Both the position numbers and the translations under genes were made by a program. 64,000 nt of DNA from Catellatospora sp. IY07-71 (GTDB taxonomy: Bacteria; Actinomycetota; Actinomycetes; Mycobacteriales; Micromonosporaceae): assembly GCF_018326265.1 (NCBI RefSeq), contig NZ_AP023360.1:2223501-2287500 (forward strand), given 5' to 3'. Shown piece after piece: positions 19,564 to 61,042 of this stretch; within the stretch, counting starts at the first letter, position 1, and the number at the start of each line of letters is the position of its first letter. The notes under the pieces were generated by a model. That model did no database searches. It was not told the origin of the DNA and saw only the letters and a program-made list of their open reading frames with translations.

Positions 19564-20916
19564 ATGCGAATAGACGACGTGGTCGGCCGGCGGCTGCGGC
19601 GGGTCGCCGCCGGGTGCGCCCTGGGCGCGTTGCTGCTGCTGGCGGGCGCGACGCCCGCGGCGGCCACCGGCGACCCGAGCGGCCCCGGCTGGTGGGCCAG
19701 CCAGCTCGCCCGGCAGCCGCTCGCCGCGAACGACGGCTGGGCCGCCTCCGGCGCCGGCACCACGGGCGGCTCGGCCGCCGACGATGCCCACGTGTTCGTG
19801 GTGCGCGACCGCAACGCCCTCGCCGCGGCGGTCACCGGCACCGACCCGAAGATCGTCTTCGTGGAGGGTGTCGTCGACGGCCTGACCTCCGCCGAGGGCA
19901 ACCCGATCACCTGCGCGGACCTCGCCGACCCCGGCTACACGCTGGAGAGCTACCTGGCCGCGTACGACCCGGCGGTGTGGGGCCGCGCGGCCGACCCCAG
20001 CGGCCCGATCGAGCAGGCCCGCGTGCGCTCGGTCGCCGCCCAGCGCGCCCGCACCGAGATCAAGGTCGGTGCCAACACCACCATCGTGGGCCTGGGCGAC
20101 GCCACCCTGAAGCACGTCACCCTGATGATCGACGGCGCGCCGAACGTGATCGTGCGCAACCTGAACTTCCAGGACGCCGCCGACTGCTTCCCCCGCTGGC
20201 GGCCCACCGACGGCGCCGAGGGCAACTGGAACTCCGAGTACGACCTGGTCTCGGTGCGGCGCTCGACCAACGTGTGGATCGACCACAACACGTTCAGCGA
20301 CGGTGACAACCCCGACTCCAACCAGCCGGTGTACTTCGGCCGCCCGTGGCAGGTGCACGACGGCGCGCTCGACATCACGCACACCTCCGACCTGGTCACG
20401 GTGTCGGCGAACGTGTTCACCCACCACGACAAGACCATGCTGATCGGCTCCTCGGACACGGTCGGCCCGGACGTCGGCAAGCTGCGGGTCACGCTGCGAC
20501 ACAACGTCTTCGACGGGGTCGGCCAGCGCGCGCCGCGGGTCCGCTTCGGCCAGGTCGACGTGTACAACAACCAGTTCCGCGTCGCCGAGCCCTACGACTA
20601 CAGCGTCGGCCTGGGCATCCAGTCGGCGGTGTACCTGGAGAACAACTTCTTCACGCTGCAGGACGGCATCCCCGCCGACCGGGTGCTGAAGGACTGGAAG
20701 GGCACCGCCGTCACCGAGCTCGGCAGCTGGGGCAAGGACGGCGACGCCCGGCCCGGCCCGCTGAGCCTGCTGGCGGCGTACAACGCGGTGCACGACCCGG
20801 ACTTCGGTCCCGACGCGGGCTGGACCCCCACCCTGCGCCAGCACAAGCCGCTGCCCGCCTTCGCGGTCCCGCTGGTCACCCTGCTCTCCGGCGCGGGGAG
20901 GCTCGGCCTCCACTGA
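19564..20916 (+). CDS. Secreted pectate lyase, PL1
   Basis: 450 residues, ATG after GGAGAG. A signal peptide (about residues 1-34, ATPAAA cleavage) precedes a single PL1 right-handed beta-helix domain. The family signatures are VWIDHNTFSDGDNP, with the Ca-site aspartates, and RAPRVRFGQVDVYNN, with the catalytic Arg. It cleaves polygalacturonate by beta-elimination outside the cell. Unlike the next three genes it carries no N-terminal binding module. It begins the four-gene lyase block downstream of LacI-type operators. Confidence 0.93.
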   Translation: MRIDDVVGRRLRRVAAGCALGALLLLAGATPAAATGDPSGPGWWASQLARQPLAANDGWAASGAGTTGGSAADDAHVFVVRDRNALAAAVTGTDPKIVFVEGVVDGLTSAEGNPITCADLADPGYTLESYLAAYDPAVWGRAADPSGPIEQARVRSVAAQRARTEIKVGANTTIVGLGDATLKHVTLMIDGAPNVIVRNLNFQDAADCFPRWRPTDGAEGNWNSEYDLVSVRRSTNVWIDHNTFSDGDNPDSNQPVYFGRPWQVHDGALDITHTSDLVTVSANVFTHHDKTMLIGSSDTVGPDVGKLRVTLRHNVFDGVGQRAPRVRFGQVDVYNNQFRVAEPYDYSVGLGIQSAVYLENNFFTLQDGIPADRVLKDWKGTAVTELGSWGKDGDARPGPLSLLAAYNAVHDPDFGPDAGWTPTLRQHKPLPAFAVPLVTLLSGAGRLGLH

Positions 20917-20940
20917 GCCCTCCCCGCACCGTGCGACTCC

Positions 20941-20989
20941 CGCACCCGGTGGCGCCCTCCGTTGCGCCCGCAGCGGACCACCGGGTGCG
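20941..20989 (+). terminator. Hairpin between the first two pectate lyases
   Basis: CGCACCCGGTGG (20941-20952) pairs perfectly with CCACCGGGTGCG (20978-20989) around a 25-base loop, 25 bp after the first lyase stop. No T-run follows. It could be a terminator or an mRNA-stabilising stem. Confidence 0.55.
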
Positions 20990-21013
20990 GTCCCTCCCAA
21001 GGAGGTTCCGCAC

Positions 21014-22669
21014 ATGTCCGTATCCATGCGCGCGGCTCCACGGCGCACCCGTCTCGCCGCCGCTCTCGGCGCCGGCCTGACCGCCCTCGTCGTCGCCCTC
21101 GGCGTGACGTGGTCCGGCGGCACCGCGTACGCGGCGACCCTGTTCTCGGACGACTTCGAGGACGGCAACTCGACCGGCTGGTCGAAGTCCGGCGGCAGCT
21201 GGTCGGTGGTCTCCGACGGCAGCCAGGTCTGGCGGCAGACCGGCACCGGCGCCGACGCCAAGGCACAGGCCGGCTCGTCCTGGACCGGCCAGTCCGTCTC
21301 GGCGCGGGTCAAGCCGATCGCCTTCGGCAACTCGTCCCGCTCGGTCGGCGTCGCCGCCCGGCTGCAGAGCCTGTCCAACTACTACTCGCTGGTGCTGACC
21401 GGCGGCGGCGCGGTGCAGCTGCGCCGGGTCTCCGGCGGCGGCGTCACCACGCTGGCCACGCTGGTGTTCCCGGTGTCCACGAACACCTGGTACACGCTGC
21501 GGCTGGACGTGTTCGGCTCGACGCTGACCGGCTTCGTCAACAACACCCAGCTGCTCACGGCCACGGACACGACCTTCTCCTCGGGGAAGATCGGCCTGAT
21601 GGCGTCGTACGCCAGCGCGTCCTTCGACGACGTCACGGTGTCCGACACGGCGGGCCCGGGCAACCCCGGCAGCCCGTCGCCGTACCCGCCGACGCCCTCG
21701 GTGCCGCCGTCGCCGAGCACCTCCCCGCCGCCGCCCGGCACCTGCAACACCGGCGGCAGCCCGACCGGCTTCGCGGCCGTGAACGCCTGGGGCCGCAGCG
21801 GCACCACCGGCGGCGCGGGCGGCCCGACCATCGAGGTCGACACCGCGAACGAGCTGATCTCGGCGATCGCCCAGGCCGGCGCGCTGAACATCTGCGTCAA
21901 GGGCATGATCACGCTGCCCGCCGGCATGTACAACGTGGCCTCGCACAAGTCGATCATCGGCGTGGGCTCGGCCTCCGGCGTCACCGGCGGCGGTTTCAAC
22001 ATCGGCCTGCCGATCGACGACGCGATCACGTCGCCGCCCGCGAACGCGGTGCAGAACGTGATCATCCGCAACCTGGTGTTCCGCAACGCCAGCGACGACT
22101 CGATCAACGTGCAGATGTTCTCGCACCACGTCTGGATCGACCACAACGACCTGGCGCAGGGCTACGACGGCCTGATCGACGTCAAGCGCGGCTCGTCGTA
22201 CGTGACCATCTCGTGGAACCACACCCACCACCACAGCAAGAACATGCTGCTGGGCCGCGACGACGCCGACGACGAGCAGGACACCGGCCGCCTCAAGGTC
22301 AGCTACCACCACAACTGGTTCGACGAGACCCCGCAGCGCAACCCGCGGGTGCGCTACGGCGAGCCGGTGCACATCTACAACAACTACTACTTCCACAACA
22401 CCGACGCGGGCGTGGCCTGCCAGACCAACGCCGGCTGCATGGTCGAGGGCAACTACTTCGAGAGCGTCGAGGAGCCGATCACCAACAGCTACGCCGGCCC
22501 GTCCGGCCGCTGCGTCGCGCGCAACAACGTGTTCACCGGCACCGAGCCGGGCGCTCCCGACTGCTCGGGCTCCGTCGAGGAGCCGAGCAACTACTACAGC
22601 TACGTGCTCGACAACCCGAACGACGTCAAGGCCATCGTCACGGCCGGCGCGGGTGTCGGAAAGATCTAG
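21014..22669 (+). CDS. Secreted modular pectate lyase: jelly-roll module plus PL1
   Basis: 551 residues, ATG after AAGGAGG. Signal peptide to about residue 41 (GGTAYAA). An N-terminal beta-sandwich module follows, about residues 42-215 (LFSDDFEDGNSTGWSKSGGSW ... YASASFDDVTVSD), similar to LamG/DUF1080-type carbohydrate modules. Next comes a Pro/Ser-rich linker of about 30 residues and a PL1 domain about 250-551. PL1 signatures are VWIDHNDLAQGYDG and RNPRVRYGEPVHIYNN. The same N-terminal module occurs in the next two genes. Role: secreted cleavage of pectate, with the module probably binding plant wall or aiding folding. Confidence 0.92.
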   Translation: MSVSMRAAPRRTRLAAALGAGLTALVVALGVTWSGGTAYAATLFSDDFEDGNSTGWSKSGGSWSVVSDGSQVWRQTGTGADAKAQAGSSWTGQSVSARVKPIAFGNSSRSVGVAARLQSLSNYYSLVLTGGGAVQLRRVSGGGVTTLATLVFPVSTNTWYTLRLDVFGSTLTGFVNNTQLLTATDTTFSSGKIGLMASYASASFDDVTVSDTAGPGNPGSPSPYPPTPSVPPSPSTSPPPPGTCNTGGSPTGFAAVNAWGRSGTTGGAGGPTIEVDTANELISAIAQAGALNICVKGMITLPAGMYNVASHKSIIGVGSASGVTGGGFNIGLPIDDAITSPPANAVQNVIIRNLVFRNASDDSINVQMFSHHVWIDHNDLAQGYDGLIDVKRGSSYVTISWNHTHHHSKNMLLGRDDADDEQDTGRLKVSYHHNWFDETPQRNPRVRYGEPVHIYNNYYFHNTDAGVACQTNAGCMVEGNYFESVEEPITNSYAGPSGRCVARNNVFTGTEPGAPDCSGSVEEPSNYYSYVLDNPNDVKAIVTAGAGVGKI

Positions 22670-22677
22670 GAGAATTC

Positions 22678-24552
22678 ATGCGTACCCCTCACTCCGGTCG
22701 CGCCCGGCGCGCCGGCCTCGTCACGGCGGCGGTCACCGCGCTGCTCGCCATGGTGATGACGGTCCTGATCAACCTCACCGGCGGCGTGGCCATGGCCGCG
22801 ACGCTGTTCTCCGACAACTTCAACAGCGGCACGGCCACCGGCTGGTCCAAGTCCGGCGGCGACTGGACCGTCGTCACCGACGGCACCGGCGTGTTCCAGC
22901 AGAGCAAGACCGACAGCGAGCTGGCCCGGCAGTTCGCGGGCAGCAGCTCGTGGACCAACTACACGGTCACCGCCCGGGTCAAGCCGACCGCGTTCAACGG
23001 CACCGGCCGCTACGCGTCACTGGGCGCCCGGTCCACCGGCAGCTCGACCCGCTACCAGCTCGCGCTGCTCAACACCGGGCGGGCCGAGCTGCAGGTGGTC
23101 AACGGCAGCAGCGTCACCGTCATCGGCGGCACGAACCTGTCCGTGACCACCGGCACCTGGTACAGCCTGCAGCTCACCGTCAGCGGCAACACGCTGACCG
23201 GCTGGGTCAACGGCGCGCAGGTCGCCACGGGCAGCAGCAGCCTGTTCAGTGCGGGCCGGATCGTGCTGGCGACGTCGTACGCCGCCGCCCGCTTCGACGA
23301 CATCGTGGTCTCCGACGGAGCCGCGCCGTCGCCGAGCGCCCCGGCCAGCCCGAGCGCGAGCCCGAGCACCCCGGCGAGCCCCAGCGCCTCGCCGAGCGCC
23401 CCGGCCAGCCCGAGCGCGTCGCCCAGCGCCCCGGCCAGCCCGAGCGCGAGCCCGAGCACCCCGCCCGGCACCACGCTGTACGTGGCGCCGGGCGGCACCG
23501 ACGGCGCGTCCGGCACGCAGTCGAACCCGACCACGCTCACCTCGGCGATCACCCGGATCGCGGCGGGCGGGACGATCTACATGCGCGCCGGCACCTACAA
23601 CTACTCCTCGACGGTGACCATCGCGCCGGGCAACAACGGCACCTCCAGCGCCCGCAAGAAGCTGTCCGCGTACCCCGGCGAGACGCCCGTGCTGAACTTC
23701 TCGGCGCAGGCGGAGGACCCGGCCAACCGGGGCCTGGCCGTCAACGGCAACTACTGGCACGTCTACGGCCTGATCGTGGAGCGCGCCGGGGACAACGGCA
23801 TCTTCGTCGGCGGCAGCAACAACATCCTCGAGCGCACCATCACCCGCTACAACCGGGACACCGGCCTGCAGCTGTCGCGCATCGCGTCCGACACGCCCAA
23901 CAGCCTGTGGCCGGCCAACAACCTGATCCTCAGCGCGGAGTCGCACGACAACGCCGACTCCGACGGTGAGGACGCGGACGGCTTCGCCGCCAAGCTGACC
24001 GTCGGCTCCGGCAACGTCTTCCGCTACTGCGTGTCCCACAACAACATCGACGACGGCTGGGACCTCTACACCAAGACCGACACCGGACCGATCGGCGCGG
24101 TGACGATCGAGGACTCCCTCGCCTACAACAACGGCACGCTGAGCAACGGCGGCCAGGCCGGCAACGGCGACCGCAACGGCTTCAAGCTGGGCGGCGAGGA
24201 CATCGGCGTGAACCACCTCGTGCGCCGCACCATCGCGGTCGGCAACGGCAAGCACGGCTTCACCTACAACCGCAACAACGGCTCGATGACGATCTCGAAC
24301 AACCTGAGCATCAACAACACCGAGCGCAACTTCACCTTCGAGGCCGGCTCCTCGGTCTTCCGCAACAACACGTCCTGCCGCAGCTCCAGCGGCACCAACG
24401 ACAAGATCGTCGGCAACACGGACAGCACCAACCAGTGGTGGATGGGCTCCAACGGCTCCCGGTGCGCCAACTTCACCGGCAGCCTCGGCTGGTCCTTCAA
24501 CTCCACCGGCGCGCTGATCGTCACCCTCGGCGGCCGCGTCGTAGTCCTGTAG
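22678..24552 (+). CDS. Secreted modular pectate lyase: jelly-roll module plus PL9
   Basis: 624 residues, ATG after TAGGAG, 8 bp beyond the previous stop. Signal peptide to about residue 40 (GGVAMAA). The same beta-sandwich module as its neighbours spans about 41-215. A linker of SPSAPASPSAS-type repeats covers about 219-262, and the rest is a beta-helix of polysaccharide lyase family 9. The PL9 hallmark is the Ca-binding Asp cluster and catalytic Lys in SDGEDADGFAAKLTVGSGN; the start TLYVAPGGTDGASGTQSNP is also typical. It is an endo-acting polygalacturonate lyase of a different family from the flanking PL1 enzymes, fused to the same module. Confidence 0.9.
   Translation: MRTPHSGRARRAGLVTAAVTALLAMVMTVLINLTGGVAMAATLFSDNFNSGTATGWSKSGGDWTVVTDGTGVFQQSKTDSELARQFAGSSSWTNYTVTARVKPTAFNGTGRYASLGARSTGSSTRYQLALLNTGRAELQVVNGSSVTVIGGTNLSVTTGTWYSLQLTVSGNTLTGWVNGAQVATGSSSLFSAGRIVLATSYAAARFDDIVVSDGAAPSPSAPASPSASPSTPASPSASPSAPASPSASPSAPASPSASPSTPPGTTLYVAPGGTDGASGTQSNPTTLTSAITRIAAGGTIYMRAGTYNYSSTVTIAPGNNGTSSARKKLSAYPGETPVLNFSAQAEDPANRGLAVNGNYWHVYGLIVERAGDNGIFVGGSNNILERTITRYNRDTGLQLSRIASDTPNSLWPANNLILSAESHDNADSDGEDADGFAAKLTVGSGNVFRYCVSHNNIDDGWDLYTKTDTGPIGAVTIEDSLAYNNGTLSNGGQAGNGDRNGFKLGGEDIGVNHLVRRTIAVGNGKHGFTYNRNNGSMTISNNLSINNTERNFTFEAGSSVFRNNTSCRSSSGTNDKIVGNTDSTNQWWMGSNGSRCANFTGSLGWSFNSTGALIVTLGGRVVVL
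23331..23465 (+). repeat. Tandem repeats encoding a Pro/Ser/Ala linker
   Basis: Inside the PL9 gene, near-identical units of about 30 bp (AGCGCCCCGGCCAGCCCGAG type) encode SAPASPSASPS/T repeats between binding module and catalytic domain. Such arrays change length by slippage. The reading frame is kept throughout. Confidence 0.8.
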
Positions 24553-24557
24553 CTCCG

Positions 24558-24611
24558 AAAGGAAGGGCACCTTCTTATCGCCTTCTGTATAGGAAGGTGC
24601 CCTTCTTAACG
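24558..24611 (+). repeat. P1 palindromic element, copy A (54 bp)
   Basis: Arms GAAGGGCACCTTC and GAAGGTGCCCTTC are exact reverse complements. They sit in a constant frame: AAAG before the first arm, TTATCG after it, a 12-base variable centre (CCTTCTGTATAG), the second arm, then TTAACG. It starts 5 bp after the PL9 stop and ends 45 bp before the next lyase. Orientation is called plus from the AAAGGAAGG end. Confidence 0.9.
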
Positions 24612-24656
24612 CTCACCGCACCGTCCCCTTCCGGCACCGTCCCTAACGGAGGAGAG

Positions 24657-26249
24657 ATGTCGACAACGCACGGCCGACGCCTCGCGATCCTGGCCGGCAC
24701 CACCGCCACCGCCCTCGCCCTGGCGGTCGGCCTCACCACGGCCGCCTCGGCGGCCACCCTGTTCACCGACGACTTCGAGGACGGCAACGCCTCGGGCTGG
24801 AGCAGCTCCGGCGGCAGCTGGTCGGTGGTCGCCGACGGCTCGCGCGCCTACCGCCAGTCCAGCACCAGCGCCGACGCGAAGTCCCTGTCCGGCTCCAGCA
24901 CCTGGACCGACTACACCGTGTCGGCCCGGGTCAAGCCGATCGCCTTCGCCAACTCCAGCCGGGCCGCGGGTGTCGCCGCCCGCGCCCAGAGCACGTCCAG
25001 CTTCTACTCGCTCGTGCTGGTCGGCGCCGGCCGCGCCGAGCTGCGCCGCACCAGCGGTGGCGGGGTGACCGTGCTGGCGCAGGCCGCCACCGCCGTCAGC
25101 CCAGGCACCTGGTACACCCTCGCGCTGTCGGTCTCCGGCAGCACGGTGCGGGGGGCCGTGAACGGAACGCAGCTGGTCAGCGCCACCGATGCCACGTTCG
25201 GCACCGGCCGGATCGGGCTCGTCGGGCAGTACGCCAGCGCGTCCTTCGACGACGTGCAGGTGTTCACCGGTCCCGGGCCGGACCCGTCCGCACCCGCGTC
25301 GCCCACGGCCTCCGCGTCGGCCTCGCCGTCGCCGAGCGGCAGCCCGCCGCCTCCGCCCCCGCCGGGACAGGCCGACGGGTACGCCTCCGTCAGCGGGCAG
25401 GGGCAGAACGGCACGTACGGCGGCGCGGGCGGGCAGACCGTCACCGTCACGTCCGCGGCGCAACTGGCCGACTATGCGGGACGGGCGGAGCCGTACATCA
25501 TCATGGTCTCCGGCCGGATCACGGTCAGCGACATGATCCTCGTCGTCGCGAACAAGAGCATCATCGGCGTCGGCAGCACGGCCGAGATCGTGGACGGCGG
25601 GCTGCAGCTGGGCTCGACCACGCGGCCGGGCAACAACGTGATCATCCGCAACATCACCTTCCGCAACCCGTCCGACGACTCGGTGAGCGTGCACAACGGC
25701 TCGCACCACGTATGGATCGACCACAACGAGTTCTGGCCGGGCTACGACGGCTCGGTCGACGTGAAGCGGCAGTCGAACTACGTGACCGTGTCCTGGAACG
25801 TGTTCCACGGCACGGACAAGTCGATGCTGCTCGGGCACTCGGACTCGTTCCCGGCGGACACCGGGTATCTGAAGGTGACCTACCACCACAACCTGTTCGA
25901 CGGGTCCAACCAGCGGCATCCGCGGGTGCGGTTCGGCGAGCCGGTGCACGTGTACAACAACCACTACCGGAACATCGGGCTCTACGGCGTGGCGTCCACC
26001 GAGAACGCGGGCGTGGTCGTGGAGGGCAACTACTTCGAGAACACGGCGTATCCGTGCTACTCGACGAACGGGTACGCCGACAGCGCGCCCGGCCGCCTGG
26101 TCCAGCGCGCGAACGCGTTCGTCAACTCCGGCGTGTGCGAGGCGAACGGGTCGGTGCTCGAGCCGGGGACGTTCTACTCGTACACCCTGGACAGCGCGTC
26201 CACCGTCCCCGCCAAGGTCGCCGCCGGCGCCGGCGTCGGCAAGCTCTAG
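24657..26249 (+). CDS. Secreted modular pectate lyase: jelly-roll module plus PL1
   Basis: 530 residues, ATG after CGGAGGAG. Signal peptide to about residue 32 (TTAASAA). The shared beta-sandwich module (LFTDDFEDGNASGWSSSGGSW ... YASASFDDVQVF) spans about 33-205. A Ser/Ala/Pro linker ending in a run of prolines follows, then PL1 from about 240. PL1 signatures are VWIDHNEFWPGYDG and RHPRVRFGEPVHVYNN. It is closest in plan to the lyase at 21014 and is probably a duplicate of it, separated by the PL9 gene. A P1 repeat follows the stop codon by one base. Confidence 0.92.
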   Translation: MSTTHGRRLAILAGTTATALALAVGLTTAASAATLFTDDFEDGNASGWSSSGGSWSVVADGSRAYRQSSTSADAKSLSGSSTWTDYTVSARVKPIAFANSSRAAGVAARAQSTSSFYSLVLVGAGRAELRRTSGGGVTVLAQAATAVSPGTWYTLALSVSGSTVRGAVNGTQLVSATDATFGTGRIGLVGQYASASFDDVQVFTGPGPDPSAPASPTASASASPSPSGSPPPPPPPGQADGYASVSGQGQNGTYGGAGGQTVTVTSAAQLADYAGRAEPYIIMVSGRITVSDMILVVANKSIIGVGSTAEIVDGGLQLGSTTRPGNNVIIRNITFRNPSDDSVSVHNGSHHVWIDHNEFWPGYDGSVDVKRQSNYVTVSWNVFHGTDKSMLLGHSDSFPADTGYLKVTYHHNLFDGSNQRHPRVRFGEPVHVYNNHYRNIGLYGVASTENAGVVVEGNYFENTAYPCYSTNGYADSAPGRLVQRANAFVNSGVCEANGSVLEPGTFYSYTLDSASTVPAKVAAGAGVGKL

Positions 26250-26250
26250 G

Positions 26251-26304
26251 AAAGGAAGGGCACCTTCTTATCGTTTTCCGTAGAGAAAGGTGCCCTTCCT
26301 AACG
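26251..26304 (+). repeat. P1 palindromic element, copy B (54 bp)
   Basis: Same 54-bp frame as copy A, with centre TTTTCCGTAGAG and second arm AAAGGTGCCCTTC. It begins one base after the TAG of the PL1 gene. It could act as the 3' stem of that mRNA, although its identical length and ends in unrelated sites point to a mobile repeat. Confidence 0.9.
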
Positions 26305-26361
26305 CGCTCGCGCGGTGGAGTGGGCCGCTCAGCAGGGTCGAGCGGCGTGGGCTGGGCTCAT

Positions 26362-26422
26362 GATCGCGACTTCGTGCCAAGATCTGCGGTTCTGCCCAGC
26401 AAAGTGACACGAAACTGCGATC
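26362..26422. repeat. P2 palindromic element, copy a
   Basis: GATCGCGACTTCGTGCCAAG at the left and TGACACGAAACTGCGATC at the right form an imperfect inverted repeat of 61 bp. The loop text (AAGATCTGCGG) is shared with the copy at 54324. The stretch 26305-26512 otherwise holds no gene that I can support. Confidence 0.75.
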
Positions 26423-26512
26423 TTCAGGCGCTCAGCGGCACGTCACCACCGTCCACCCATGCGTTCGCGGCCGTCCGGCGAGCCGGAACACGGCTCGGCC
26501 AGCAGGCTGACA

Positions 26513-26566
26513 CGTTAAGAAGGGCACCTTCTACCACGGAAAGCGATAAGAAGGTGCCCTTCCTTT
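26513..26566 (-). repeat. P1 palindromic element, copy C (54 bp, reverse orientation)
   Basis: Reverse-oriented P1 unit with centre CTTTCCGTGGTA. Its AAAG end fuses to the minus-strand ORF ending at 26566 so that the element supplies the last A of that ORF's TGA stop codon. Arms are GAAGGGCACCTTC and its exact complement. Confidence 0.9.
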
Positions 26567-26709
26567 CAGCTGACGGTGCAGGTGGCGCCCTGGGCGGGCG
26601 CCCCGGCCAGGCCGACCGCGAGGGTGGAGAGGGTGACGACGCCGCAGGCTCCGGCGAACAAACGGCGCCACCGGCCCGGAGGGCGGATGGCGTCACTGTG
26701 GGTAGGCAC
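26566..26709 (-). pseudogene. Truncated secreted-protein gene: signal peptide plus six residues
   Basis: A GTG with GGAG seven bases upstream opens a 47-codon ORF. It has a basic N-region (RPPGRWRR), a hydrophobic core (LFAGACGVVTLSTLAVGLA) and a cleavage site near APAQG-A, then only ATCTVS before the stop. The stop is made at the junction with a P1 repeat. A CebR-like operator lies 146 bp upstream, nearly the spacing seen at the GH48 gene. ATCTVS looks like the first residues of a CBM2 (compare ACEVVYT in the cellulase). I read it as the 5' stub of a cellulose-active gene interrupted at the repeat. A genuine short exported peptide is less likely. Confidence 0.5.
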
Positions 26710-37425: not shown

Positions 37426-37507
37426 GTCCCCCACGGTGGCCGTCCTGCCCAGCCGTGCGCTGCTCTGCTCTGCCCTGCCCCGGCCCTGCCCCGGCCCTGC
37501 CCGGCAA

Positions 37508-37568
37508 GATCGCTAGTTCGTGTCCAAACCTGAGGTTCTACCCGAGGTTCTGACACGAAACCGCGATC
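37508..37568. repeat. P2 palindromic element, copy b
   Basis: GATCGCTAGTTCGTGTC at the left and TGACACGAAACCGCGATC at the right, 61 bp in all, in the gap between the convergent importer operon and hydrolase gene. The loop includes GAGGTTCTACCC, comparable to GCGGTTCTGCCC in copy a. Confidence 0.75.
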
Positions 37569-37573
37569 ATGGG

Positions 37574-37608
37574 CCAGCCGCCAGCCGCCAGCCGCCAGCC
37601 GCCAGCCG
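37574..37608. repeat. Five tandem CCAGCCG heptamers
   Basis: Five exact 7-bp units directly after the P2 copy. It is non-coding and close to the hydrolase stop. It is likely slippage-generated, and no function is evident. Confidence 0.85.
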
Positions 37609-38531: not shown

Positions 38532-38585
38532 CGTTAGGAAGGGCACCTTCTACATCGGAAAACGATAAGAAGGTGCCCTTCCTTT
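38532..38585 (-). repeat. P1 palindromic element, copy D (54 bp, reverse orientation)
   Basis: Reverse-oriented P1 unit with centre TTTTCCGATGTA and the same arms. Its AAAG end supplies the final A of the xylulokinase TGA stop codon, the same junction seen between copy C and the truncated ORF. It fills most of the gap between two minus-strand genes. Confidence 0.9.
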
Positions 38586-39979
38586 CAGAGGGTGAGGTCG
38601 CGGGCTTCGGCGTAGCGGGCGCGGACCGTGGGGGCCGGGTCGGCTTCGAAGAGTTCGGCGCCGGACAGGGTCCAGTCGGGGGACTGGCCGGTGGTGAGCC
38701 AGGCGGCCTGGCGGGCGGCGCCGTCGGCGACGTACTCGCCGGGCGGCGGGACCAGGACGGGGCAGCCGAAGACCGAGGGGGCGATGCGGCGGACCGCCTC
38801 GGAGCGGGCGCCGCCGCCGACCAGGACCACGCGGTTGACGGTGGCGCCCTGGCCGCGCAGGGCGTCGAGGCCGTCGGCCAGGGCGCAGAGCATGCCCTCG
38901 ACGGCGGCGCGGGCCAGGTGGGCGGGGGTGGACGTGCCCAGGGTCAGGCCGTGCAGGGAGCCGGTGGCATCGGGCTTGTTGGGGGTGCGCTCGCCCTCCA
39001 GGTACGGGACGAGCACCAGGCCGCCCGCTCCGGCGGGGGCGGACAGGGCCAGCTCGGCGAGGCGGGCGTGGTCGACGCCGAGCATGGTCGCGGCGGCGTC
39101 CAGCACGCGGGCGGCGTTGAGGGTGCAGACCAGCGGCAGGAAGTGGCCGCTGGCGTCGGCGAAGCCGGCGACGGTGCCGGTGGGGTCGGCGGCGGGCACG
39201 GTGGCCACGCTGAACACGGTGCCCGAGGTGCCGATGGAGACGACCACGTCGCCGGGGCGGGCGCCGACGCCGAGCGCGGCGGCGGCGTTGTCCCCCGCGC
39301 CGGGGCCGAGCAGCGCGCCCGAGGCGGTGCGCCCGGCGGAGTCGGCGGGGCCGAGCACGACGGGCAGCAGCACGTCTTTGCCGAAGGCGAGCTTGAGCAG
39401 GTCGCGGCGGTATTCCCCGGTGGCGGGGGACCAGTAGCCGGTGCCGGAGGCGTCGCTGCGGTCGGTGGCCAGCGCGGCGAGGTCGCCGCTGCCGCCCAAC
39501 CGCCAGGTCAGCCAGTCGTGCGGCAGGCACACGGCCTCGGTACGGGCGGCGTTGGCCGGCTCGTTGCGGGCCAGCCAGCGCAGCTTGGTCACGGTGAACG
39601 AGGCGACCGGCACGCTGCCGACGCCCTCGGCCCAGGCGCGCGGGCCGGCCTCGCCCGGCCCCAGCTCCGCGACCAGGTCGGCGGCGTCCGGGGCCGAGCG
39701 GGTGTCGTTCCACAGCAGCGCGTCGCGCACGACCGCGCCGTTCGCGTCGAGGCAGACCATGCCGTGCTGCTGCGCGCCGACCGAGACCGCCGCGACGTCG
39801 TCCAGCCCGCCCGCCTCGGCGATCGCCGTCTGGAGGGCCTGCCACCAGGCGTCGGGCGGGCAGGACGTGCCGTCGGGATGCGCGGCGCGGCCTTGGCGGA
39901 CGAGCGCGCCGGTGCCGGCGTCGCGTACCACCACCTTGCACGACTGGGTGGAGGAGTCGATGCCGGCGACGAGTGCCAT
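38585..39979 (-). CDS. xylB: Xylulokinase
   Basis: 464 residues, FGGY carbohydrate kinase. The N-terminal phosphate motif [15 protein letters not shown], the substrate region [13 protein letters not shown] (typical of xylulokinase), [17 protein letters not shown], and the C-terminal [22 protein letters not shown] are all present. It phosphorylates D-xylulose with ATP to feed the pentose phosphate pathway. It starts 4 bp after the alpha-xylosidase stop, so the xylose released by that enzyme is probably its source. No xylose isomerase gene is in the window. The stop codon is completed by a P1 repeat. Confidence 0.93.
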
Positions 39980-42447: not shown

Positions 42448-44415
42448 TTGGCCGCCGTGCCGAACCACCCGTACTTCTACGGCGCCGACTGGAATCCGGA
42501 GCAGTGGCCCGAATCCGTCCGCGCCGCCGACCTCGACCTGATGCGCCAGGCCGGGGTCACCGCCGCCACCGTCGGCGTCTTCAGCTGGTCACGGCTGGAG
42601 CCCACGCCCGGGGCGTACGACTTCACCCTGCTCGACCGCGTCCTCGACGGGCTGCACGCGGCCGGGATCGGGGCGGTGCTCGCCACCCCGACCGCCTCGC
42701 CGCCGCCCTGGTTCACCGTCGCCCACCCCGACGCGCTGGCGCAGCGGCGCGACGGCGTACGCCTGGTGCACGGCTCGCGCGACACGTACTGCGTGAACGC
42801 GCCCGCGTACCGGGCCGCGAGCCGGGGCGTCGCCGCCGCGCTGGCCTCCCGCTACGCCCACCACCCGGCCGTGGTGCTGTGGCACGTGCACAACGAGTAC
42901 GGCACCTGGTGCTTCTGCGACCACTGCGCCGCCGCGTTCCGGGGCTGGCTGCGCGCCCGCCACGGTGATCTCGCCGCGCTCAACGAGGCGTGGTGCACCG
43001 ACTTCTGGAGCCAGCGCTACGGCGACTGGGCGCAGGTGCTGCCGCCGCGCGCGACGCAGTACCTGACCAACCCCGCGCACGAGCTGGACTACCGGCGCTT
43101 CCTGTCCGACAGCATGCTGGCCGCGTACGCCGAGCAGCGGGACGTGATCAAGGCGGTCGCGCCGGACGCGCCCGTCACCACGAACTTCGTGCTCGGCGGG
43201 TGGGTGCCGGTCGACCACGCCCGCTGGTCCGGCCAGGTGGATCTGGTCGCCATCGACCACTACCCGTCCTCGCCGGCCGATGCCCCGGCGCAGAGCGCGT
43301 TCGCGGCCGACGCCGCGCGGGGCTGGTCCGCCGCGGCCGGCCACGGCGGGCACTGGCTGCTCATGGAGCACGCCCCCGCGCACGTCACCGAGCACGGCGT
43401 GCAACGCCGCAAACCACCCGGCATGCTCGCCCGCATCGCGCTGGCCCACATCGCCCGCGGCTCCCGCGGCGCCATGTACTTCCAGTGGCGCGCCAGCCGC
43501 GGCGGCGCCGAACAGTGGCACTCCGCCCTGGTCGACCACCCCGGCCCCGACACCCGCCTCTTCCGCGAAGCCGTCGCCCTCGGCACCCGCCTCGCCGACC
43601 TGGAAAGGAAGGGCACCTTCTTAACGCATTGCGTAGAGGAAGGGCACCTTCTTAACGCCTCGCCGGTGGCGGTGTGGTTCGACGAGGTGTGCGGGTGGGC
43701 GATCGGGGCGTCGCACCTGCCCGCGCCGGTGGACTACCAGGGGATCGTCGAAGGGTGGCACCGGGCGCTGTGGCGGCGCGGCCACGCCGTCGACGTGGTG
43801 CCGCCCGCCGCCCGGCTGGGCGGTTACCGGGTGCTCGTCGTCCCGGCGGCGTACCTGCTCACGGACGTCTCGGCGCGGCGGCTCGCGGAGTACGTGCGCG
43901 ACGGCGGGCACCTGGTGGTGACGTACCTGTCGGGGATCGTGGACGAGCACGCGCGGGTCCGCACCGGCGGCCACCCGGGCGCGTTGCGCGACCTGCTCGG
44001 CGTGCGGGTGGAGGAGTTCGACCCGCTGCCCGCGGGGGAGTCGCTGGTCCTCGACTCGGGCGACGTCGCGGCGGCGTGGACGGAGCACCTCACCGCGCCG
44101 GACGCCGCGGTGCTCGCCGCGTATCCGGACGGCAGACCCGCGGTGACCAGGCGCGAGCACGGCGCGGGGGTGGCGTACTACGTCTCGTGCGGGCTGGACG
44201 ACGCCGCGACGGCGCGGCTGCTCGCCGAGGTGTGCGCGGCGGCCGGAACCGAGCCGCTGGTGCCGGATCTACCGGAAGGTGTCGAGGCGGTGGCCACACC
44301 GCAGGGGCTGTGGCTGTTCAACCACACCGACCTGACCCACGAGATCGCGGGCCGTGACGTCGCACCGGGGGAGGCCGCGCTCGTCACGTCGGCCAGCACA
44401 CCGTCGCCGGACTGA
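42448..44415 (+). CDS. GH42 beta-galactosidase with in-frame repeat insertion
   Basis: 655 residues from a TTG eight bases after GAGGGG; GTG 42457 is the next option. There is no signal peptide. The GH42 barrel has FYGADWNPEQWP at the start, the proton donor Glu in LWHVHNEYGTWCFC, and the nucleophile Glu in WLLMEHAPAHV. Cysteines of the family Zn site are visible (DTYC, WCFCDHC). Then come the trimerisation domain and a small C-terminal domain. Between barrel and trimerisation domain, after RLADL, 18 residues (RKGTFLTHCVEEGHLLNA) come from a 54-bp P1 element that keeps the frame. It cleaves terminal beta-galactose from imported oligosaccharides; activity despite the insert is likely but unproven. 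Confidence 0.9.
   Translation: MAAVPNHPYFYGADWNPEQWPESVRAADLDLMRQAGVTAATVGVFSWSRLEPTPGAYDFTLLDRVLDGLHAAGIGAVLATPTASPPPWFTVAHPDALAQRRDGVRLVHGSRDTYCVNAPAYRAASRGVAAALASRYAHHPAVVLWHVHNEYGTWCFCDHCAAAFRGWLRARHGDLAALNEAWCTDFWSQRYGDWAQVLPPRATQYLTNPAHELDYRRFLSDSMLAAYAEQRDVIKAVAPDAPVTTNFVLGGWVPVDHARWSGQVDLVAIDHYPSSPADAPAQSAFAADAARGWSAAAGHGGHWLLMEHAPAHVTEHGVQRRKPPGMLARIALAHIARGSRGAMYFQWRASRGGAEQWHSALVDHPGPDTRLFREAVALGTRLADLERKGTFLTHCVEEGHLLNASPVAVWFDEVCGWAIGASHLPAPVDYQGIVEGWHRALWRRGHAVDVVPPAARLGGYRVLVVPAAYLLTDVSARRLAEYVRDGGHLVVTYLSGIVDEHARVRTGGHPGALRDLLGVRVEEFDPLPAGESLVLDSGDVAAAWTEHLTAPDAAVLAAYPDGRPAVTRREHGAGVAYYVSCGLDDAATARLLAEVCAAAGTEPLVPDLPEGVEAVATPQGLWLFNHTDLTHEIAGRDVAPGEAALVTSASTPSPD
43604..43657 (+). 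repeat. P1 palindromic element, copy E, in frame inside GH42
   Basis: Same 54-bp frame as the intergenic copies: AAAG, arm GAAGGGCACCTTC, TTAACG, 12-base centre CATTGCGTAGAG, then a second arm and TTAACG. Here both arms read GAAGGGCACCTTC, so they are direct rather than inverted copies. It adds 18 codons without a stop. The flanks continue as normal GH42 sequence on both sides. Confidence 0.9.
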
Positions 44416-44461
44416 ATCTTGTGCAGTTCGTGTCGTCCCGGCAGCACGAACTGCACAAGAT
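44416..44461. terminator. Inverted repeat at the GH42 stop codon
   Basis: ATCTTGTGCAGTTCGTG and CACGAACTGCACAAGAT are exact complements (17-bp stem, 12-base loop) starting directly after the TGA. The gene on the other side (DUF1254) converges on it, so a bidirectional terminator is likely. Its design resembles the other dispersed palindromes, but it has no second copy here. Confidence 0.75.
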
Positions 44462-44520
44462 CTGGTGGGCGTGGCGCCCGGGTGGACGCGGACGGCCGGG
44501 TGTGCGGCCCGGCGGGGCGG

Positions 44521-54323: not shown

Positions 54324-54388
54324 AAGATCGCTGTTTCGTGTCAAGATCTGCGGCTGGACTGCATTTCTTGACACGAGACAGCGATCTT
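54324..54388. repeat. P2 palindromic element, copy c
   Basis: AAGATCGCTGTTTCGTGTCA pairs almost perfectly with the right end (TGACACGAGACAGCGATCTT), giving a stem of about 23 bp. It lies 14 bp after rsrA and 29 bp before the convergent VWA gene end, so it probably also terminates both transcripts. The loop AAGATCTGCGG matches copy a. Confidence 0.8.
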
Positions 54389-54416
54389 TGTCTGTCACCG
54401 CCGCGAGCGGCCCGGC

Positions 54417-60818: not shown

Positions 60819-60931
60819 CCCCCGCGCCACCACCGAGGCCCCGCCCGCGCCGCCGTTCCCGGCCGCGCCGGCGGGGCCTCGCCATACCCGGCCCTGCGCC
60901 GACCCTCCCCGCCCGGCCCGGTCGCGCGGGA

Positions 60932-60992
60932 GATCGCCGTCTCGTGTCACAAAGTGTGGCTGGACCCCAGGTTGTGACACGAAATCGCGATC
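60932..60992. repeat. P2 palindromic element, copy d
   Basis: GATCGCCGTCTCGTGTCACA at the left and TGTGACACGAAATCGCGATC at the right (61 bp). The loop GTGTGGCTGGACCCC is comparable to the loop of copy c. It lies between the convergent MFS and TPR genes. Confidence 0.78.
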
Positions 60993-61042
60993 ATGGGCCC
61001 TTCGGCCACGGCGCTGGCCCCGGATCGGGCGGAGCGAGGAGG

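Follow-up and report, generated by a model that had tools for sequence, protein, structure and literature searches.

A REP-like hairpin repeat of Catellatospora adjoins stop codons, lies in frame within several proteins and seems to evolve in concert

The window analysed here, a stretch of 64,000 nucleotides from Catellatospora sp. IY07-71 (G000:C1:2223501-2287500; the genome, G000, is a single contig of 8.6 Mb), contains a GH42 beta-galactosidase gene that harbors a copy of a dispersed palindromic repeat. This raises the question of what the repeat is, where it normally resides, and how it is accommodated within a protein-coding gene. The gene and the parts of its repeat copy are as follows, in window coordinates.

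42457..44415, + strand: GH42 beta-galactosidase gene, 652 aa from the inferred start codon
42487..43599, + strand: GH42 catalytic barrel domain, PF02449 (residues 11-381, Pfam E 4.3e-125)
43605..43656, + strand: in-gene element, 52-nt core; with the preceding GA it covers 43603-43656, that is, 18 codons
43608..43620, + strand: first arm of the in-gene copy, GAAGGGCACCTTC
43639..43651, + strand: second arm of the in-gene copy, GAAGGGCACCTTC, in direct orientation (most copies have the inverted form, GAAGGTGCCCTTC)
43666..44244, + strand: GH42 trimerisation domain, PF08532 (residues 404-596, Pfam E 1.5e-48)

Positions 43603-43656 translate to ERKGTFLTHCVEEGHLLN, residues 383-400 of the GH42 protein, and the frame reads through without a stop; the Pfam boundaries at residues 381 and 404 place the element between the barrel and trimerisation domains. 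A sequence-only reading of the window had proposed both the open frame and this placement, correctly in each case. The whole repeat match found in the gene by the window repeat search spans 43603-43658. The GH42 protein matches 16 distinct PDB sequences at E<=1e-20, and the best of them, 9ta3, the closest solved GH42 sequence, shows an alignment gap opposite the element residues. A predicted structure of the protein was set aside as too poor (mean pLDDT 46). Directly behind the GH42 stop codon, at 44413-44464, lies a long inverted repeat (CTTGTGCAGTTCGTG ... CACGAACTGCACAAG), which is likely a terminator-type hairpin.

The element belongs to a hairpin family present in tens to hundreds of copies per Catellatospora genome, usually at gene ends. 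The five copies of the window served to build a profile for a census of 2.46 Mb of G000, which covered the window and 120 systematically sampled 20-kb stretches. The census returned 82 copies, or about 285 when scaled to the whole genome; later counts refer to 81 of them, one copy without the anchor motif (L153) being left out. All 81 contain the anchor AAGGAAGG or a near form of it and align without any indel across 52 positions, with nearly invariant arms and a variable spacer. The proposal that the GH42 copy has the same length as the others therefore holds for the 52-nt core but not for a 54-nt insertion unit, for which the compared sites yielded no clean pair of empty and filled states with a footprint. 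Consensus positions 28-31, mostly GTAG, adjoin the second arm and are internal to the unit, and the first arm has no counterpart of them. The second arm is inverted (TGC) in 64/81 copies and direct in 15/81. The in-gene copy is of the direct-arm variant, with GAAGGGCACCTTC twice on the + strand, and thus does not share its arms with the other copies as had been thought; at the same site of the sister genome G002 the second arm is GAAGGTGCCCCTC. Among in-gene forward copies direct arms occur in 3/4, compared with 12/77 of the remainder (p 0.019), but these are four copies only and we do not claim an enrichment.

The four other copies of the window are listed below with the ends of the genes upstream of them.

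24557..24612, + strand: element copy; the upstream stop codon starts 7 nt before the projected first base
26250..26305, + strand: element copy; the upstream stop codon starts 3 nt ahead
26514..26569, - strand: element copy; the upstream gene shows no codon-usage signal
38533..38588, - strand: element copy; TGA of the upstream gene at the element 5' end, offset +1

Four copies outside intact genes had indeed been described in the window; three of these adjoin a stop codon, and the fourth gives no codon-usage signal on its upstream side. These copies fold at -32.1 to -36.1 kcal/mol (z -4.7 to -8.4), which none of 200 shuffles equals, and the GH42 copy at -28.0 kcal/mol (z -3.1; 2/200 shuffles equally good). 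Together with the 64/81 inverted arms, the hairpins of the four intergenic copies give the family the palindromic, stem-loop structure of REPs. Its abundance also agrees with a REP family, for which more than 100 highly similar copies are expected: exact 14-mer arms number 414 across G000, and an 18-mer arm with <=2 mismatches gives 253+236 matches in the whole genome, the reversed-pattern control giving 0. An apparent strand bias of the arm matches along the chromosome was dismissed as an artefact of the listing, since the copies at 26514 and 38533, each with a perfect minus-strand arm, are absent among the matches listed. The window has no match in Rfam at gathering scores.

These data also bear on whether the GH42 segment could be a normal linker whose likeness to the repeat is accidental. 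Long variable linkers do exist at the element-free GH42 sites of two relatives (108 nt in G005 and 135 nt in G009). However, the GH42 copy is up to 97% identical to other genome copies over nearly the whole unit, the window holds 10 matches to the 13-nt arm GAAGGGCACCTTC at <=1 mismatch compared with 0.06 expected from shuffles, and seven relatives have the same type of element at this site. We regard chance similarity as refuted by these observations, its probability being close to nil. An assembly error was likewise ruled out, as the site is filled in those seven other Catellatospora genomes, G002 included.

The window contains further repeats. The window repeat search also found four copies of another dispersed palindrome, an imperfect one of about 69 nt (D3; AGATCGC..TTCGTGTC ... 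GACACGA..GCGATC).

26361-26429: D3 palindrome copy
37507-37575: D3 palindrome copy
54325-54393: D3 palindrome copy
60931-60999: D3 palindrome copy

The region 20550-26000 holds the repeated-sequence families D1, D4, D6, D8, D11, and D13, which suggests two or three related genes in tandem.

In a search of 61 genomes at E<=0.001, the element was found in 11/11 Catellatospora genomes and in one genome of another genus (G020), and was absent from the 49 others. G020 belongs to the same family of bacteria; it yielded 56 first-look candidates, of which 15 were scored and all 15 matched, and its repeat is possibly the result of transfer, or of old inheritance followed by loss elsewhere. Copy number varies within Catellatospora, with 414 exact arms (two types summed) in G000 compared with 72 in G008.

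The main niche of the family is the end of genes. Gene ends were judged by a purpose-made codon-usage score trained on long sample ORFs, which takes the place of validated gene calls. By this score, the sequence lying 5' of the element codes in the same direction in 66/81 copies, codes in the opposite direction in 8/81, and is under the threshold in 7/81. An upstream stop codon starts within -14 to +4 of the anchor in 57/81 copies, compared with 38/5000 random positions (Fisher p 3e-88) and with 16/81 when the same procedure is applied to the 3' side, so that the element is tied to stop codons and sits there in a preferred orientation to the gene. Fifteen exceptions were inspected: three are in-gene copies, and a few lie against the stop codon of their other neighbouring gene. 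With 57/81 copies at a stop codon and at least 5/82 within genes, the family resembles REPs in being mostly extragenic and often located at gene ends. The sequence-only reading mentioned neither this niche nor the direct arms nor the arm changes shared among copies described below.

Such placement invites the explanation that the family consists primarily of selected mRNA 3'-end signals, acting as terminators or stabilisers, with the in-gene copies as strays. Gene-oriented adjacency to stop codons and the strong hairpins of the four intergenic window copies speak for it, as does the report that translation is lowered when an E. coli REP and a stop codon are <16 nt apart (PMC12306157). Nevertheless, no T run follows the stem in the 81 aligned copies, and the near-identity of so many copies needs dispersal whatever their function. 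We consider this explanation a tenable one that falls somewhat short of an even chance. It is compatible with, and does not exclude, the explanation we prefer, namely a REP-like, non-autonomous hairpin family of Catellatospora that is located mostly at gene ends and is tolerated in protein linkers in the manner of Rickettsia palindromic elements (RPEs), which we hold to be probable. In this REP-like family, a hairpin at a gene end could act on the mRNA 3' end through RNA stability, transcription termination, or translation termination.

The GH42 gene is not the only one with an in-frame copy. Copies were taken as in-gene when an open frame ran through the element and coding scores were found on both sides; applied to 132 distinct places, this filter returned eight, namely five genes of G000 and three orthologous places in G002 and G010. 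It missed the GH42 copies of five other genomes, and the proportion of in-gene copies, at least 5/82 of those sampled, is therefore a minimum. For comparison, 1365/5000 random positions read through in the co-directional frame. Besides GH42, the genes concerned are these, with positions in G000.

438290: element in FdhD (Pfam-supported family)
7683507: element in a molybdopterin-binding hydroxylase subunit, reverse in the gene (Pfam-supported family)
4386125: element in GH95 (Pfam-supported family)
654183: element in a CysS_C-domain protein, of which Pfam assigns only the C-terminal part

Thus, as with RPEs, in-frame copies are found in unrelated conserved protein genes, and the Rickettsia-like presence first suggested by a single gene recurs in five, with presence and absence across the genus in three of them and presence in 11/11 genomes in a fourth. 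Related genomes contain the unit inside genes as well, in orthologues of GH42, FdhD, the hydroxylase, GH95, and the CysS_C protein. The data support tolerance of coding insertion but not selection for it, the genic copies (at least 5/82) being a small share of the family. Nor does a length that is a multiple of three appear to be an adaptation: the core has 52 nt, some sites seem to have lost part of the native segment to the element, and the GH42 copies are read in two frames.

The history of these sites was followed by comparing them across genomes. For GH42, a match was obtained in 62 genomes, and their 30 best loci were compared, 11 from Catellatospora and 19 from other genera, G020 not being among them. 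The site is filled in 8/11 Catellatospora genomes and in 0/19 loci of other genera. The linker of the window genome has 72 nt, compared with 33-48 nt in all 19 homologues outside the genus, which carry shorter linkers without the element, as the insertion reading anticipated; however, the net gain is 8-13 codons, not the exactly 18 codons that had been claimed. Within the genus, the element-free linkers are 45 nt in G008, 108 nt in G005, and 135 nt in G009; the latter two genomes carry the repeat elsewhere, yet their long GH42 linkers are without it. The eight carriers form one clade, which the concatenated tree supports at 100% and the tree of GH42 at 97%. Two frames are read: ERKGTFLT in G000 and G002, and EGRAPS...KVPF or close forms in the six others, where base changes away from the G000 consensus open the second frame. 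Both frames would derive from one insertion only with compensating indels. We suggest that the element entered the GH42 linker once, in the ancestor of the eight-genome clade, entry on more than one occasion seeming less likely. Linkers rich in Gly, Ala, or Pro and of very unequal length adjoin the GH42 and CysS_C elements, and G005 and G009 have such linkers too at their GH42 site, which lacks the element.

In FdhD (16 loci), the element is present in 8/11 genomes of the genus (G000, G002, G003, G006, G010, G007, G009, and G005), and the site is empty in G004, G008, and 5/5 outgroups; G001 could not be read owing to overlapping matches and is counted neither way. The FdhD element of G002 (L276), G010 (L279), and G007 (L280) is broken by a common in-frame insert of about 36 nt that starts with GTCGGCTCGCGTCAGCG.

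The hydroxylase comparison comprised 16 loci, one of them without usable flanks and one too distant for judgement. A reverse element occurs in G000, G002, G005, and G009, where the native segment seems to have been replaced rather than interrupted, and a shortened remnant in G008. In G006, a forward element lies at the same place beside the retained native segment, which is best explained as an independent gain. The element is lacking in G010, G003, G004, G001, G007, and three outgroups (G064, G017, and G068). The base of the genus is poorly supported in the gene trees (60 and 73%), so that the hydroxylase element may or may not reflect a single gain. For GH95, 13/16 loci were unreadable at the site (nine matched on one side and four on neither), and the comparison rests on G000 and G002, both of which have the element, and on the nearest homologue, in G011, which does not. 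The CysS_C protein has the element in 11/11 Catellatospora genomes, in one frame and followed by a variable, mostly Gly/Ala-rich linker; most simply, this element would predate the radiation of the genus. The five window copies are all present in G002, with largely equal arms and with spacers that differ in four of five; as all five sites are filled there, no recent movement is seen at them.

Species-specific arm changes are common to in-gene and other copies. Exact arms of the GGGCACC and GGGCCCC types, counted on both strands, number 414/0 in G000, 382/0 in G002, 68/4 in G008, 113/146 in G005, and 3/147 in G009. The in-gene arms of G005 and G009 (FdhD, hydroxylase, and CysS_C) follow the same trend: GGGCAC or its complement is found in 0/12 of them and GGGCCC in 9/12. 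In these genomes, the change from GGGCACC to GGGCCCC is accompanied by changes in the encoded residues: the copies of FdhD and of the CysS_C protein have KGPF or KGPL instead of KGTF, and that of the hydroxylase has KKGPFL instead of KKVPFL. Since the CysS_C element occupies one place and one frame in 11/11 genomes, the arm change is best read as homogenisation, and the shared changes suggest concerted evolution, which could proceed through gene conversion or through new insertions landing on existing copies. One may go further and suppose that genome-wide homogenising through such conversion or repeated re-insertion rewrites all copies, so that a mostly non-coding drive alters several unrelated proteins at once; we put this forward tentatively, as a proposal somewhat less likely than not.

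The GH42 copies show a related pattern, four stem pairs being changed on both sides among the eight of them. None of 1000 column shuffles reaches this, in a test that ignores relatedness and in which three of these double changes neighbour one another in a single genome (G001). The pattern would suit a GH42 element that is functional as RNA or DNA and selected rather than tolerated, for example as a hairpin that times the passage of ribosomes from one folding domain to the next; so would the retention of the element in all eight clade members and the strong folds of the G003 (-38.4 kcal/mol) and G001 (-43.5 kcal/mol) copies. However, the three adjacent changes in G001 may represent one event, the inverted arms have been lost in the G000 copy, the neighbouring linker is highly variable, and templated quasipalindrome correction or conversion would give the same pattern. 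We consider such a function unlikely, and within the REP-like family set out above the GH42 element would instead be a tolerated passenger that encodes a flexible linker.

How the family spreads was approached through its possible transposase. The arrangement recalls that of typical REPINs, pairs of inverted REPs that a REP-associated tyrosine transposase (RAYT) mobilises: two REP-like arms are joined in one hairpin, inverted in 64/81 copies, the length is fixed, copies are many, and arms are more conserved than the spacer, as described for REPINs (PMC3116915, PMC2817692), and GTAG stands beside the second arm in the consensus. On the other hand, the 15 direct-arm copies do not conform to this structure, and a search covering G000 found no RAYT. 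The sole Y1 protein found in this genome (one PF01797 match) is an IS200/IS605 transposase (134.9 bits, cut-off 55) that scores 22.9 bits against a RAYT cut-off of 80, and the element is absent from its 3.4-kb locus, within 1.5 kb of the gene, where a RAYT gene would be flanked by repeats. In the control of the Y1 family search, 5 of 14 control genomes matched, E. coli included. Mobilisation by a RAYT is thus quite unlikely. As for a MITE, no linked transposase was found, and we infer the act of insertion, because the compared sites offer no clean empty/filled pair with a duplication or target-site footprint.

Taken together, the repeat is a stop-codon-hugging, REP-like family that lies recurrently in frame in proteins and seems to evolve in concert. 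Within one genus, the same protein sites can be seen empty, filled, with a reversed element, or with an interrupted one, which makes both REP-like spread where no RAYT was found and protein change by repeat homogenisation testable, and the tight, gene-oriented placement at stop codons makes a 3'-end function directly testable. Rickettsia is known to have in-frame palindromic repeats, and some other bacteria have intragenic REPs; here such repeats are found in high-GC actinomycetes with genomes of 8-10 Mb. Relatives of the RPEs reportedly exist in Wolbachia.

Among the known systems, RPEs, which occur in Alphaproteobacteria, are dispersed repeats of 105-150 bp that occur in intergenic DNA and also, in frame, within conserved protein genes that are unrelated to one another (PMC10969869, PMC2229807). 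The Catellatospora repeat is likewise a dispersed palindrome, both intergenic and in frame within unrelated genes; in contrast, its unit has 52-54 nt and lies mostly at stop codons in gene orientation, and the two are likened here by their arrangement. RPE-4 and RPE-6 have been classed among the CGTC REPs (PMC3733652). According to the same source, GTAG/CGTC REPs are small palindromes located <20 bp from the 3' ends of ORFs, the GTAG types often supply the stop codon, some lie wholly within ORFs (in O. terrae, R. conorii, and others), and dimers or grouped repeats encode 20-30 residues; its main text does not mention Actinobacteria by that word. The Catellatospora family differs from these in that its GTAG-like tag is internal and present at one arm only, no RAYT was found in G000, and its in-gene copies could be traced across a genus together with shared arm changes.

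The earlier statement that no such elements have been described in actinomycetes agrees with the literature matches listed, which cover few subscription journals and do not include this family. The E. coli REPs offer a further parallel. Their unit has 14-40 nt (PMC12306157), the size of a single Catellatospora arm, whereas the whole Catellatospora unit has 52 nt. Both can form a hairpin <=15 nt from an upstream stop codon, but this source places 446 of its 4,072 predicted E. coli REPs within that distance, compared with 57/81 in Catellatospora (-14 to +4), where a single orientation to the gene prevails. From REPIN/RAYT systems the family is set apart by its direct-arm subfamily and its in-frame coding copies, and membership of these systems fails in G000, where the RAYT is missing. 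By analogy, the Catellatospora family would rather work in the manner of RPEs and intragenic REPs.
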